Positions 30,596 to 61,744 of a stretch of DNA of 64,000 nt are shown in pieces (position 1 is the stretch's first letter; each line of letters opens with the position of its first letter). The notes beneath the pieces are model-generated. The model searched no databases. It was given only the letters and a program-made list of their open reading frames with translations, and had not been told where the DNA came from. The stretch is from Chelatococcus asaccharovorans (GTDB taxonomy: Bacteria; Pseudomonadota; Alphaproteobacteria; Rhizobiales; Beijerinckiaceae): contig NZ_QJJK01000006.1 of NCBI RefSeq assembly GCF_003201475.1, forward strand, positions 310,001 to 374,000, written 5' to 3'. Made by a program: the position numbers and the translations under genes.

Positions 30596-33359
30596 GTCCG
30601 GATAAGCTCGGGTTCGTCATGAAATATTGGTGAGCGTTGAAATGCAGCTCGTTCGCGGCGGGCTTCACCCGCTGACTGGTTCCATCCGGCAGGATGGTCC
30701 AGCTCTGCTCGTTATCGAGCAGATTGGCCAAGAGGATCTGGTCGAGGATCTGTTGATGCACGGTCTCGTTGGTTATCGGACATAGGCATTCCACTCGCCG
30801 ATCGAGGTTACGCGGCATCAGGTCCGCAGACGATACATACAAGTGCGCCTGCGGATGCGGCAACCCATGGCCGTTTCCGAAAGCGTAGATTCGGCTGTGT
30901 TCGAGAAAGCGGCCCACAATCGATTTGACCCGGATGTTCTCCGACAGCCCCTTCAGGCCCGGCCGCAGGCAGCAGATGCCGCGCACGACGAGATCGATCT
31001 GCACGCCGGCCGAGCTCGCCTCATAGAGCGCGTCGATGATGACCGGATCGACCAGCGAATTGCATTTGCACCAGATCGCCGCCGGACGCCCCGCCTTCGC
31101 ATGCGCGATTTCCTCGGCGATATGCTGCAGGATGCGCGGCTTGAGCGTAACCGGGGAAACCGCCATGCGCTCGAGACCCGCCGGTTCGGCGTAGCCGGTG
31201 ATGTAGTTGAAGATGCGTCCCACATCGCGGGCGATGACCGGATCGGCCGTGAAGAACGACAGGTCCGTGTAGATGCGCGCCGTGACGGGATGATAGTTGC
31301 CCGTACCGACGTGGCAGTAGGTCACGAGTTGGCTCCCCTCGCGCCGCACGACCGACGACAGCTTGGCGTGGGTTTTGAGTTCGATGAAGCCAAAGACGAC
31401 CTGCACGCCGGCCCGCTCGAGATCGCGCGCCCAGCGGATATTGGCTTCCTCATCGAAGCGCGCCTTGAGCTCGACGAGCGCCGTCACCGACTTGCCGGCC
31501 TCGGCCGCCTCGGCGAGCGCCTTGACGATCGGCGAGTTGGAGGACGTGCGATAGAGCGTCTGCTTGATGGCGACCACATCCGGATCCCGCGCCGCCTGAT
31601 GCAGGAACTGCACGACGACATCGAAGGATTCATAGGGGTGATGGACGACGATGTCCTTCTCGCGGATCGCCGCGAAGCAATCTCCGCCATGCTCGCGGAT
31701 GCGCTCGGGGAAGCGCGGATTGTAAGGCTTGAACTTGAGATCAGGCCGTTCGAGGGAGACGAGTTGGCTCAATTCATTGAGGGCGGGCATGCCCTCGACC
31801 AGAAACACCGCGTCCTGCTCGAGCTTGAGCTCCTTCACCACGAAGGCGCGCAAAGGATCGGGCATGGCCACGTCGATTTCGAGGCGGATGACGCTGCCGC
31901 GGCGGCGTTGCTTCAGCGCCGTCTCGAACAGGCGCACAAGATCCTCCGCCTCTTCCTCGACCTCGATGTCGCTGTCGCGGATCACCCGGAAGCCGCCACC
32001 GCCGGTGACGGTGTAGCCGGGGAAGAGCCGCGACGTGAACATGACGATCAGCTGCTCGAGCGTGACGAAGCGCGCAGCCCCCGTTTCCGCGAAATCCGGG
32101 AGCCGCACGAAGCGCTCCACCTTGTTCGGCACGCGGATCAGCGCGTTGAGCGCGCGATTGTCGCTCTGCCGGAACAGGGACAGGGCAATCGAGAAGCCGA
32201 GATTGGGAATGAAGGGGAAGGGGTGGGCCGGGTCGACGGCGAGCGGCGTCAGAACCGGGAATACATGGTCGAGGAAGTAGTCCCCGAGCCAGGCCCATTC
32301 GGCTTTGGTCAGGTTCTCGCCGTCCACGAGGACGATCCCGTTCAGGAGAAGATCATCGCGCAGGTCCCGCCAGCGTTGCTGCTGGTCATTGGCAAGCGAC
32401 GAAACCTCGTTGCCGATCTGCGCGAGTTGCTCGATCGGCGTCAGGCCATCCTGGGAGGCTATCTGGATCCCTGAGCGCACCTGGCCGCGCAGGCCCGCGA
32501 CACGGACCATGAAGAACTCATCGAGATTATTCGCGGAGATCGAGAGAAAGCGCAGGCGTTCAAGCAGCGGGTGGTTCGGATTGGAGGCCTCCTCCAGCAC
32601 CCGGCGATTGAACTGGAGCCACGAGAGCTCGCGGTTGATGAAGCGGGCGGGCGAGTAGCGGAGATCCTGGGCGGGACTGGAGGCGCTTTTTCCGGAGACA
32701 CCTTCACCGACCGGCGTCTCCGTGGCGGTTGTGTCCAAGTCAGCCTTGTCCAAGTCGGCCTTGTCCAGGTCGGCCATGTCCAAGTCGGCCTTATCCAAGT
32801 CGGCCTTATCCGTGGCTGCCTTGTCCAGCACCGCATCACCGGCAAGGACGTCGTCCTCGACCGGCCTATGTTCTGCCTCGACGCTCACCATAACCTCCAC
32901 CGTCTCCAAACCCTTATCGGAGACAATTGTCCCAATGTTGCGCGACGTTTCCAAGACATCCGAAGCCAACGATGCATCGGCCCTCAAAACATCCGACATC
33001 GAGACATCCGACGCCGAGATATCCGGCACCGCGACGGACGGCGGCCGGACCGCCCTGTCCCGACGCTTCGCTTTCGAGGGACGTGTCGCGGAAGCGTCTC
33101 CCGCATTGAAACGCGCTTTCATCGGCTTTGTGGCTTGAGAATGACCTGTTTCGCCTCCAGCAGGAAGCGTTTTGGGGCGTAAACGCTTCTTTTTCGTGGC
33201 CTTGTCTTTCCCCGGGACGGCCTTGTCTTTCCCCGGGAGGACCTTGGCTTTCCCCGGGAGAGCCTTGGCCTTCCCCGGGAGGGCCTCGTCTCCCGCGAGC
33301 GGAGCCTGCCGCTTCGGTGCCCTGCGGCGTGGCGCGCCCGACGAAGGTTTTTGCATCAC
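30528..33359 (-). CDS. ppk1: Polyphosphate kinase 1 with a 240-residue N-terminal extension
   Basis: PPK1 makes polyphosphate from ATP. The canonical enzyme begins near residue 240 ([19 protein letters not shown]). The active-site block FIELKTHAK gives the phospho-histidine and [17 protein letters not shown] the second conserved site. Ahead of it lies a low-complexity region: residues 27-54 are four Lys-rich heptads (LPGKAKA type) and residues 185-209 are five ADLDK-type pentads, both made by DNA tandem repeats. A GGAG five bases before the GTG at 33359 (eight before the next ATG) and overlap with the hdaA stop support the long start. A later start closer to the core is possible. Confidence 0.9.
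32733..32807 (-). repeat. 15-bp tandem repeat in ppk1 (five units)
   Basis: Five 15-bp units (32733, 32748, 32763, 32778, 32793) close to GTCCAAGTCGGCCTT encode A-D-L-D-K/M pentads. A degenerate sixth follows at 32808. The protein pattern A(D)LxX resembles pentapeptide-repeat geometry but only five units are present. Confidence 0.9.
33199..33282 (-). repeat. 21-bp tandem repeat in ppk1 (four units)
   Basis: Four 21-bp units (33199, 33220, 33241, 33262), each containing CTTTCCCCGGGA or CTTCCCCGGGA, encode heptads of the [14 protein letters not shown] type near the PPK1 N-terminus. A fifth, degraded unit follows. Confidence 0.9.
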
Positions 33360-59822: not shown

Positions 59823-60743
59823 CTATTCGCAGGCGGCCGCCTTGAGCAGCACCAGTTCCTTCAACTCCCCCTTCAGGGTGAAGTTGTCATATTTGAGCGC
59901 GAGCGAACGGGCGATGCCGTTCTCGTACAAATCGAAGCTCAGGACATAGACGGGCAGCGCCTCGCCCCGCGCCGTGGCCTGTTTGAAATAGCTGATCGAG
60001 ATCGGCCAATGCGCCGCCGTGCCAAAGAGTTCATCGAACCGGCGCTGACGCTCGGCGAAGGCCTCTTCGCTATCGTCGAACTTGACCGTGTCCTGCTCCC
60101 CGGGAGCGCTTTTGCCGGTACCCTTCTCGCTGGATGGCTTCCCCGCGTTGCCGGCCGGCTTGGCCGCATCTGGCCGCCCGATCACGGCCAGCGTGTCGTA
60201 GAAACTGCGTCCATCCTCAGAACCGTCGAAAACGCGGGCCTCGACGATCGACTTGCCCTCCTTCGCGCCCGCGATCAGAGCCCTGAGATGCGCCGCCGGG
60301 AAAATCGCATCGCCGAGCTTCACCGTCTCGCGGCCGGGCTTGACGAAATTGACCGCAACCGCGCCGTCGCGCCGCACGGCCTCGCCATCGACGAGCTTGG
60401 GCGGCGTGTTCGCGTTGCGGGTTTCCGCCTTGAAGCGGAAGGCGCCCCCCCGTGCGTCCTCGAAAGTCGTCATGCGCATGTCGGTGGTGGTGGCATTGTT
60501 CTCGCCCTCGAGAACGACGACCTGCCGCGAGCGCGAAGCATAGCCGTCACAGGCCGTGCCTGTGATTTCATAGACCACGCGCCCCACGGCGGACTGGATG
60601 GCGCCACTGCTGTCGGCCAGGGACAGGTCATAGATCGCCCTGTGCGGTGCAAGCGAGGCCTCCGGCATCGCTTCGGCCATAGCTCCCGCGGGCCAGAACA
60701 ACGCGAGGGCCATCGCGGTAACGACGACAGGCCTTGTGGCCAT
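59823..60743 (-). CDS. eipB: Cell envelope integrity protein EipB (DUF1849)
   Basis: A 306-residue periplasmic protein of the EipB family, known in Brucella for envelope integrity. The signal peptide is MATRPVVVTAMALALFWPAGAMA; the mature part has the family blocks APHRAIYDLSLADSSGAIQSAVGRVVYEITG, the cysteines in GTACDGY and near the C-terminus (KAAACE), and PISISYFKQ...GEALPVYVLSFDLYENGI. The start at 60743 has GGAGG five bases upstream. Convergent with dinB: nine bases separate the stops. Confidence 0.9.
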   Translation of the reverse strand: MATRPVVVTAMALALFWPAGAMAEAMPEASLAPHRAIYDLSLADSSGAIQSAVGRVVYEITGTACDGYASRSRQVVVLEGENNATTTDMRMTTFEDARGGAFRFKAETRNANTPPKLVDGEAVRRDGAVAVNFVKPGRETVKLGDAIFPAAHLRALIAGAKEGKSIVEARVFDGSEDGRSFYDTLAVIGRPDAAKPAGNAGKPSSEKGTGKSAPGEQDTVKFDDSEEAFAERQRRFDELFGTAAHWPISISYFKQATARGEALPVYVLSFDLYENGIARSLALKYDNFTLKGELKELVLLKAAACE

Positions 60744-60785
60744 GATGACCTCCATCTCACGTGGGTGGGCTGATGCCCAACCCAC

Positions 60786-60861
60786 CTAGTGGAATGAATT
60801 TGACATTCGGTACCCGCTCGATGTCGGCCTCGAGACCGAATGTCAAATTCGAAAATTCCAC
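60786..60861. repeat. Long hairpin repeat R1 (reverse orientation)
   Basis: Inner stem GAATTTGACATTCGGT with its perfect 16-bp complement at 60835-60850; outer stem GTGGAAT/ATTCCAC; a four-base bulge GAAA on the right arm (60851-60854). Left end CTAGTGG. First of four related units; R1, R2 and R3 begin exactly 92 bases apart. Confidence 0.9.
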
Positions 60862-60877
60862 GCGAATCATAAACTTC

Positions 60878-60956
60878 CTAGTGGAGCGAATTTGACATTT
60901 GAGTCCCGCCTGACATCAAGCTCCAGATCAAATGTCAAATTCATAAGCTCCACTAG
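60878..60956. repeat. Long hairpin repeat R2 (reverse orientation)
   Basis: Outer stem CTAGTGGAGC/GCTCCACTAG, 10 bp perfect; inner stem GAATTTGACATTTGA with its perfect complement at 60928-60942; bulge ATAA on the right arm. The flank after it (aaccaataactt) resembles the one after R1 (aatcataaactt). Confidence 0.92.
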
Positions 60957-60969
60957 AACCAATAACTTG

Positions 60970-61046
60970 CTAGTGGTTCTCATGACTCCGACATTGGCTC
61001 CGAGGCCCGTATCAGGCGGATGCAAATGTCGGAGTCGAACCACTAG
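60970..61046. repeat. Long hairpin repeat R3 (forward orientation)
   Basis: Outer stem CTAGTGGTTC/GAACCACTAG, 10 bp perfect; inner stem GACTCCGACATT/AATGTCGGAGTC; bulge TCAT now on the left arm, so the unit is inverted relative to R1 and R2. Its last four bases CTAG are shared with R4. Confidence 0.92.
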
Positions 61047-61119
61047 TGGTTCTCCTGTTTCCAACATTTGCCCTCGTGGCCGATACAAATAGGATGCAAA
61101 TGTTGGAAACGAACCACTA
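61043..61119. repeat. Long hairpin repeat R4 (forward orientation)
   Basis: Outer stem CTAGTGGTTC pairing with GAACCACTA; inner stem GTTTCCAACATTTGC with its perfect 15-bp complement at 61096-61110; bulge TCCT on the left arm. The loop (ccctcgtggccgatac...) is recognisably related to those of R1-R3. Confidence 0.92.
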
Positions 61120-61273
61120 TCACAGCATCAGGCAAGTTTCGCGCCGGATCAATGACTGAGACTCATGATATCGCCGTTGCGATCCCGGCCGGGGTGGGCG
61201 AAAACGCTCATCGGCCGCCCTCCGACGCGAGGGCGGCTCGGCTGTCCCCGCTCGCAAGACAAGGAAACTTTTC

Positions 61274-61744
61274 ATGAGCCGTATCGACTCCAGGCTGGCA
61301 GAACTCGGCATCGTCCTTCCCACGCCGGCGGCACCGATCGCGAACTACGTGCCCTTCGTTCTGAGCGGCCGGTTCCTGTTCACGTCCGGCCAGCTATGCC
61401 TCGGCCCCGACGGCAAGCTCGCTGATGCCCACAAAGGCAAGCTCGGCGGTGAGATTTCGCTGGAAGCCGGCCAGCAGGCCGCGCGTCTCTGCGGCATCAA
61501 TCTGCTCGCCCTGGCCAAGGCCGCGCTCGGCGATCTCGACCGGATCACGCGGGTCGTGCGTCTCGGTGGTTTCATCAATTCGACACCGACTTATGGCTCC
61601 GTACCCGGCGTGATGAACGGCGCATCGGATCTGATGGTCGAGGTCTTCGGCGATCTTGGCCGCCATGCCCGCAGCACCGTCGGCGTGGCGCAGTTGCCGC
61701 TCGACGCCGCCGTCGAAGTCGAAGCCCTGTTCGAAGTTGCCTGA
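61274..61744 (+). CDS. RidA family protein
   Basis: A 156-residue YjgF/YER057c-type protein; RidA enzymes deaminate reactive enamine/imine intermediates. It shows NYVPFVLSGRFLFTSGQLCLGPDGKL, AARLCGINLLALAKAALGDLDRITRVVRLGGFINST and the C-terminal ARSTVGVAQLPLDAAVEVEALFE. The arginine at the position needed for activity in RidA is kept. It belongs to the longer (~150-residue) subgroup. Its start lies only two bases before a GDPD gene at the other end (stop 61744, next start 61747). Confidence 0.9.
   Translation: MSRIDSRLAELGIVLPTPAAPIANYVPFVLSGRFLFTSGQLCLGPDGKLADAHKGKLGGEISLEAGQQAARLCGINLLALAKAALGDLDRITRVVRLGGFINSTPTYGSVPGVMNGASDLMVEVFGDLGRHARSTVGVAQLPLDAAVEVEALFEVA

Follow-up and report, generated by a model that had tools for sequence, protein, structure and literature searches.

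The four long hairpins at positions 60786-61119 of the window (the whole 64,000-nucleotide stretch of the Chelatococcus asaccharovorans genome that was analysed) represent two mobile elements, not four, in which one pair of unlike hairpins joined by a linker is nested within another such pair. With a probability that we put at about 85%, the array consists of a non-autonomous transposon (MITE) of the IS630/Tc1-mariner type with a second copy nested inside it. The evidence comprises the composite unit itself, its nesting, empty sites in relatives, a TA duplication at one site, the likeness of its ends to those of IS630-family elements, and covariation of the stems; to judge from the end sequences, the elements would have been moved by an IS630 transposase acting in trans. 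What looked like an odd hairpin array becomes a readable record of two insertions, and a widespread alphaproteobacterial repeat family gains a probable transposase and a target rule.

Two nested composites in the eipB-ridA gap

The array is flanked by genes that, following the initial annotation, we take to be eipB, ridA and ugpQ. Its four hairpins were found where that annotation had placed them and with the stems and bulges that it described. R1 (60786-60864, forward strand, 79 nt) has an inner stem of 60796-60811 paired with 60835-60850 and the bulge GAAA; its inner CTAG reads CGCG, as it does in an intact paralogue on contig C13. A 13-nt linker (60865-60877, forward strand, AATCATAAACTTC) leads to R2 (60878-60956, forward strand, 79 nt), with an inner stem of 60888-60902 paired with 60928-60942 and the bulge ATAA. 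There follow a second 13-nt linker (60957-60969, forward strand, AACCAATAACTTG) and two hairpins on the reverse strand, R3 (60970-61046, 77 nt; bulge TCAT, on the inner arm) and R4 (61043-61119; bulge TCCT). The starts of R1, R2 and R3 are indeed 92 bases apart, the CTAG at 61043-61046 is common to R3 and R4, and each unit has the reported four-base bulge on one arm. As single-stranded DNA, the units fold with -21.8 to -25.4 kcal/mol and z-scores of -8.67, -7.49, -7.97 and -9.18 (R1 to R4), values equalled by 0 of 200 shuffles for each of the four. A scan of 60700-61300 for promoters and terminators gave nothing above shuffled sequence (0 promoter-like and 1 terminator-like match).

Within the window, the pattern CTAGTGG-N50-78-CCACTAG is matched twice, by R2 and R3, against 0.00 expected from 100 shuffles; R1 and R4 deviate from it at one end each. 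The 7.25-Mb genome as a whole contains 110 matches per strand, whereas the reversed control pattern gives 9, and a strict unit pattern occurs in 27 of 397 genomes of the order. The earlier suspicion that a mobile palindromic element had multiplied here is upheld, but the mobile unit is a composite of 169-170 bases and not the single hairpin. This composite consists of a hairpin A of 79 nt, a 13-nt linker and an inverted hairpin B of 77-78 nt, and is short, multicopy and without a transposase gene. Its linker AACCAATAACTTG, or a near-identical one, stands beside most units listed in this genome. In the 1.26 Mb of this genome that were read (approximately 17%, made up of contig C1, the window and the opening 200 kb of C6), a profile search recovered 28 near full-length composites, with the interrupted R1-R4 uncounted. 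In total, 87 composites were found in this and other genomes, of which a first pattern split 56 (22 were unmatched, and 9 were duplicates or had no recognised start), while a looser pattern split 69 (16 unmatched, 2 duplicates) and mis-cut at least four B units. Among the 56, 45 have a linker of 13 nt. The bulge lies on the inner arm, where it adjoins the linker; its length is 4 nt in 44 A units and in 44 B units, and otherwise 3 or 5 nt. The flanks beyond the composite vary from copy to copy.

In the window, R1 and R4 are the ends of an older composite that is interrupted by a younger one, R2-linker-R3. Once R2-R3 is removed, R1-linker-R4 differs from the intact C13 paralogue by a single mismatch over 169 positions; a second intact relative of R1-R4, at C1:132161-132330, has more differences. 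The younger composite is inserted at the CTAG of the junction between the linker and R4 (61043-61046, the inner CTAG of R4). The older composite measures 169 bases to its final TA, and the net interruption amounts to 165 bases; tandem composites with a common CTAG and a period of 165 occur at C23:47865-48366 and C3:559475-559973. The annotated row of four related elements therefore holds for the hairpins, but not for the units that moved, which are two nested A-linker-B pairs. Similarly, R1 and R2 do face opposite to R3 and R4, but these orientations are the two ends of each pair and not independent inversions.

Other genomes also contain solitary hairpins that combine an A-like with a B-like arm (G254:C1:797241, G190:C13:43555 and G315:C5:89448), as if the linker and inner arms had been lost.

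Insertion sites and IS630-type ends

The initial annotation proposed a comparison of the eipB-ridA gap among relatives. None of the four units is present there in any of three other genomes of the genus, in which the empty site reads CCACCTATCACAG, CCACCTAGCACAG and CCACCTAACACAG, that is, CCACCTA followed by TCACAG, GCACAG or ACACAG. The filled site reads CCACCTA-GTGG...CCAC-TATCACAG. At this one resolved locus, the junction is a TA duplication around GTGG...CCAC, with the left copy at 60787-60788 and the right copy at 61118-61119, although a CTA duplication with an asymmetric end is also possible there. A second insertion, in genome G427, is common to G334 and G439 and absent in four other genomes of that genus, with its junction placed approximately. 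This insertion (L093, L350, L351) lies upstream of an ORF that, by eye, resembles an ABC transporter ATPase. When 28 joined-flank queries were compared with 400 kb from three relatives and with seven eipB-ridA loci, none aligned across its junction. Since R1 and R4 had been kept in the join, the two flanks of the window site were matched there separately, and the remaining joined flanks were too diverged or lay outside the stretches compared.

At the outer ends of the 28 composites, CTA precedes GTGG in 24 and TAG follows CCAC in 19. CTAG is scarce in this genome: C1 has 0.33 per kb, versus 3.15 expected from base composition. Of the 456 occurrences in 1.26 Mb, 81 fall inside composites or no more than 6 bases away from one; the composites make up 4,703 bases, or 0.37% of the sequence. 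Since CTAG is rare and each intact element has four, the elements insert into one another; composites supply their own targets at high density. Nests and tandem arrays would be explained in this way, with no need for a special function of the eipB-ridA gap. By crude ORF calls, the 28 composites lie between tandem genes in 17 cases, divergent genes in 4 and convergent genes in 4, and inside genes in 3. Another short repeat adjoins several composites in this genome (flanks of C1:132161, 807635, 807902 and 578015) and is present in a relative (G055, L347:13866-13963). It reads AGCATTTTCG or CGAAAATGCT directly at the CTAG beside some composites, and its CTAG may itself serve as a composite target.

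Through a full-length transposase relative (L148), 79 loci were obtained from named records, and 58 of these were inspected for ends. Ends were present on both sides in 47 of these IS630-family loci, nearly all of them 1151-1156 bp apart, and CTAGTG stands at both the start and the finish in 46 of the 47. The two proteins scanned are IS630 family transposases (NCBIfam NF033545, E values of 5.7e-82 and 1.9e-80). The terminal inverted repeats of the composite match those of these IS630-family elements: after CTAGTGG, A agrees with the best IS left ends at 19 of 23 positions (mean shuffled maximum 9.4), and for B the best IS ends, left and right alike, agree at 17 of 23 (mean shuffled maximum 9.2), each score being reached by 0 of 2000 shuffles. 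For instance, the elements with CTAGTGG ends in Bradyrhizobium sp. ARR65 (L243) and Roseiarcus fermentans (L216) share with the composite the outer arm, CTAG at both ends, and GANTC sites at positions 24 and 11. In contrast, the IS is about 1152 bp long, with one transposase gene and single-arm ends, whereas the composite is 169-170 bp long, has no gene, and forms at each end a full hairpin with a displaced inner copy. Both A and B of the main family resemble left as well as right IS ends; the position of GANTC suggests that A corresponds to the left end and B to the right, and a sister subfamily weakly supports this assignment.

The likely mover was sought in this and other genomes, with results that count in part against the IS630 account. 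A DDE_3 search had no match in this genome and matches in 9 of 21 genomes, and a profile search recovered here no intact IS630 transposase, only one fragment and two short N-terminal matches. The fragment (C1:414361-414687) corresponds to profile positions 118-226 and is possibly a relic of a former mover; around it, C1:413000-416000 contains no CTAGTG or CACTAG. By profile search, near full-length transposases are present in 8 of 33 genomes, and in four genomes (G413, G391, G190 and G014) IS630 transposase remnants adjoin ends such as CTAGTGGAGCGAATCTAACGTTTGG. Among 35 genomes chosen for carrying the matching IS, two have the strict MITE pattern, one Sphingobium and one Mesorhizobium. Outside the Alphaproteobacteria, CTAG lies directly at the predicted end in 7 of 9 sampled IS630 copies and three bases inward in an eighth, while the Paraburkholderia copy has no convincing CTAG ends; CTAG ends thus appear to be general in this IS clade. 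According to the title of a 1991 paper by Tenzen and Ohtsubo (cited in PMC2170065), an IS630-associated transposon prefers the TA in CTAG. The RAYT-type transposase that the initial annotation considered as a possible partner was rejected, as Y1_Tnp is absent here and 3 of the 32 genomes searched (this genome counted among the 32) have a match.

These observations are consistent with the following mechanism. Each copy has two unlike ends, hairpins A and B, joined by the 13-nt linker. In each hairpin the outer arm, beginning GTGG, is a terminal inverted repeat of the IS630 type, while an insertion of 3-5 nt displaces the inner arm, itself an inverted copy of the outer. An IS630 transposase acting in trans would bind the two outer arms and cut at the ends, and the element would then insert at a TA, usually within CTAG, and duplicate the TA; in the window, R2-R3 entered R1-R4 at the CTAG where linker and R4 meet. 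The insertion in the inner arm shifts the binding box away from the inner CTAG and may so spare the inner ends from cutting. The likeness of the inner arms to the outer ones may be maintained through DNA palindrome correction, with the inner arm recopied from the outer, or through symmetric binding of the transposase to both.

Stem symmetry, GANTC sites and rival readings

Pairing of the stems was counted in chosen rows, because the looser split had mis-cut at least four B units. These rows held units of 74-81 nt with TAGT at positions 2-5, with at most two per genome (six for this genome) together with R1 and R4; the mis-split B rows L263 and L259 and the B row L270:220-296 were left out. The counts lean to intact units, the tested structure was drawn from the same sequences, and kinship of the copies is uncorrected. 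With these limits, 99.2% of cells are paired in 44 selected intact A units, in which 5 pairs changed on both sides, and 97.6% in 37 selected intact B units, in which 11 did. Slid structures reduce the paired cells to 22-41%. Between units, loops differ at 46-49% of positions and stem arms at 4-14%. The initial annotation had proposed that matched changes preserve the pairing and had taken a lack of covariation as a sign of mere recent copying. The matched changes recur in the units of this and other genomes, and the covariation score was reached by 0 of 500 shuffles for A and B alike.

Such covariation could suggest a conserved structured RNA (an sRNA, a riboswitch-like element, or mRNA-stability hairpins) under selection, with the copying secondary, and some S. 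meliloti REP elements and repeats, not those described here, are transcriptionally active (PMC2873474). If an RNA were under selection, G.U pairs should be favoured on its strand. The imperfect cells comprise 11 G.T, 15 A.C and 16 others, and neither strand looks favoured as RNA. The 13 Rfam matches in 60400-61500 with E values up to 5 are mostly to microRNAs, and none is at gathering score. In addition, the loops diverge strongly, and the insertions are polymorphic among relatives and occur in all gene contexts. A selected RNA structure, one of the two possibilities raised in the initial annotation, is therefore a poor explanation of the array in spite of the strong pairing and the two-sided changes. 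Without an excess of G.U, an RNA role is unsupported and the stem symmetry is read as a matter of DNA; an origin at the DNA level, through palindrome correction or symmetric end-binding sites, would fit better. The matched arm changes also serve as a warning, since a structured RNA could have been proposed from the covariation alone.

Alternating orientation, short linkers and many copies also recall elements of the REP, BIME or REPIN type, which a RAYT (Y1) transposase moves on single-stranded hairpins. We consider this origin highly improbable, given the distribution of Y1_Tnp and the size of the units (77-79 nt with CTAG ends, versus a 20-40-bp palindrome with a GTAG or CGTC tag for REP; PMC3733652). 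The TA duplication at the window junction also speaks against it, since such a duplication is not a known signature of Y1 transposases. A and B could instead be separate single-hairpin MITEs that came to lie side by side and were co-amplified by recombination or segmental duplication. Most units do have CTAG at both ends and full internal symmetry, and hybrids occur in which a single hairpin has the outer arm of A on one side and that of B on the other (G254:C1:797241 and G190:C13:43555). Yet the A-13 nt-B arrangement with its inner bulge recurs in eight families as well as in Sphingobium and Mesorhizobium, a sister subfamily has the same plan, and the flanks differ between copies, so that this account is also improbable. 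Integron attC sites, to which the hairpin-with-bulge appearance might point, were set aside by inference from the dispersed copies and because the attC core motif was not seen.

A further regularity of the IS630-type MITE concerns GANTC. Among distinct IS ends, it stands at position 24 in 36 of 39 left ends and at position 11 in 32 of 34 right ends, with a varying middle base. In the composites, 51 of 69 A units have a GANTC beginning at position 24, with the stem ending at 25, and 50 of 69 B units have one at position 11; these counts come from the looser split and include mis-cut B units. A cell cycle-regulated methyltransferase methylates GANTC in Alphaproteobacteria (PMC2229807), and the pattern recalls the Dam control of Tn10 and Tn5 (PMC5390034). 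A more ambitious but unlikely proposal is that the two-hairpin plan was itself selected in a class of alphaproteobacterial IS630 MITEs, perhaps including the Caulobacter CIR repeats, with inner sites out of register and transposition timed by CcrM. Each end would then carry two opposed transposase sites, of which the inner is shifted by 3-5 nt and only the outer is cut, and CcrM methylation of GANTC at left position 24 and right position 11, in IS and MITE alike, would time transposition. If true, this would explain the mobility of CIR-type repeats, which a 2007 review left open. As specific evidence for a coupling to CcrM, the sites were rejected, since GANTC at position 11 is also present, outside the Alphaproteobacteria, at both ends of IS630 copies from Streptomyces (2 of 2) and Rhodococcus (1 of 3), and may simply be part of the binding motif. 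Among the 15 loci fetched, GANTC at position 24 of the left end was present only in Sulfitobacter and Martelella; the pairing in Bradyrhizobium NK6 is out of register, and the Paraburkholderia ends are unconvincing.

Known repeats, a sister subfamily and distribution

On the best reading, the composite is an IS630-type MITE with two unlike hairpin ends, belonging to a family that occurs in many alphaproteobacteria and is close in plan to the CIR repeats (CcrM-associated intergenic repeats) of Caulobacter; its mover is probably a bacterial transposase of a known class. As described in a review of 2007 (PMC2229807), CIR elements of Caulobacter and Brucella are about 110 bp long, with two arms, a linker, GANTC near the terminal loop, and TA termini; they are marked there as lacking terminal inverted repeats, and their mobility as needing more information. 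The composite resembles this description in its occurrence in Alphaproteobacteria, its intergenic location, its two long inverted-repeat arms with a linker, its TA termini, and its GANTC at or partly in the terminal loop (as at position 24 in 51 of 69 A units). It differs in its length of 169-170 bp, and in outer arms that are imperfect inverted repeats beginning with CTAGTGG. The comparison with CIR is by described plan, and the mobility of two-arm repeats such as CIR becomes testable.

Other small repeats were likened to the composite by description only. The RUP element of Streptococcus pneumoniae is proposed to be mobilised by the IS630-Spn1 transposase to TA-containing targets, and is presented by Delihas as an exception among bacterial repeats in that its ends resemble an IS, namely IS630 (PMC2229807). 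Like the composite, it is a small intergenic repeat of proposed IS630 origin; unlike it, RUP is 107 bp long and from a Firmicute, and a two-hairpin plan is not part of its description in that account (PMC2229807). The Bru-RS1 and Bru-RS2 palindromes of Brucella, which are reported to be preferred sites of IS711, an element that duplicates TA (PMC2266754, PMC10800456; also listed in PMC2267715), are likewise repeated palindromes of a Hyphomicrobiales genus, but their length of 103-106 bp is unlike that of the composite. The RIME of rhizobia are Rhizobium-specific intergenic mosaic elements (PMC2573895). Prokaryotic MITEs were reviewed in 2024 (PMC10969869); that review describes CIR as strictly intergenic and nowhere mentions IS630. 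Titles and abstract openings of the open-access papers listed by literature searches contained no description of a 169-bp two-hairpin IS630 element. The remark of the initial annotation that no named family was known thus stands as far as sequence is concerned, while the plan is shared with CIR and the proposed IS630 origin with RUP. The RIME, too, are built of two palindromes.

A sister subfamily was recognised from a composite in genome G417 (L270), which has the same two-hairpin plan with different ends, CTAGTGCA. By pattern search, units with these ends occur in 5 of 28 genomes, at 6, 3, 5, 3 and 1 places per strand, and the reversed control gave one place, in a genome without forward matches. 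The listing contains three sister unit pairs, each 13 nt apart; these pairs were read from the listed unit coordinates and the L270 row, and a strict pattern for full sister composites matched none in those loci. A second IS630 group has the same CTAGTGCA ends, with 11 transposase genes of equal score in genome G254. Alignment of seven of these loci defined an element of 1146 bp with the ends CTAGTGCACTGACGC and CTAGTGCACTGACTC and differing flanks, which points to a probably recently active element. The G254 transposase genes lie on its contig C1, for example at 32136, 464729 and 1432105. In 3 of 3 cases, A' agrees better with the left ends of its own IS group than with the right ones (15-17 versus 13-14 of 23), while B' barely favours the right ends in two units (16 versus 15, and 17 versus 17 of 23). 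One A' (G303/G254) scored 16 against main-family left ends and 15 against its own group. The best scores of the five sister units were reached by 0 to 4 of 2000 shuffles. The two-hairpin plan thus accompanies two end sets, with a weak left-right matching in the sister subfamily. Its recurrence with two different sets of IS630-type ends suggests some role of the double hairpin in transposition.

The strict unit pattern is found in 11 of 142 genera and ten families of the order, against 0 for the reversed control, and the A-13 nt-B arrangement with the inner-arm bulge is shared by composites of eight families of the order and by the Sphingobium and Mesorhizobium loci. Among 289 genomes sampled from the class, the strict pattern was present in this genome and in one of another order. 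One A unit is identical over 79 nt between this genome and G400, which belongs to another family, suggesting recent transfer. A search of 72,556 plasmid records for the composite gave 6 with 75-78% identity, among them a Martelella plasmid that carries both a composite (78% identity) and an IS630 copy with CTAGTGG ends. In the draft genome G014, units start 61-64 bases from the starts of contigs C31, C46, C59, C98 and C104; the repeats probably break this assembly.
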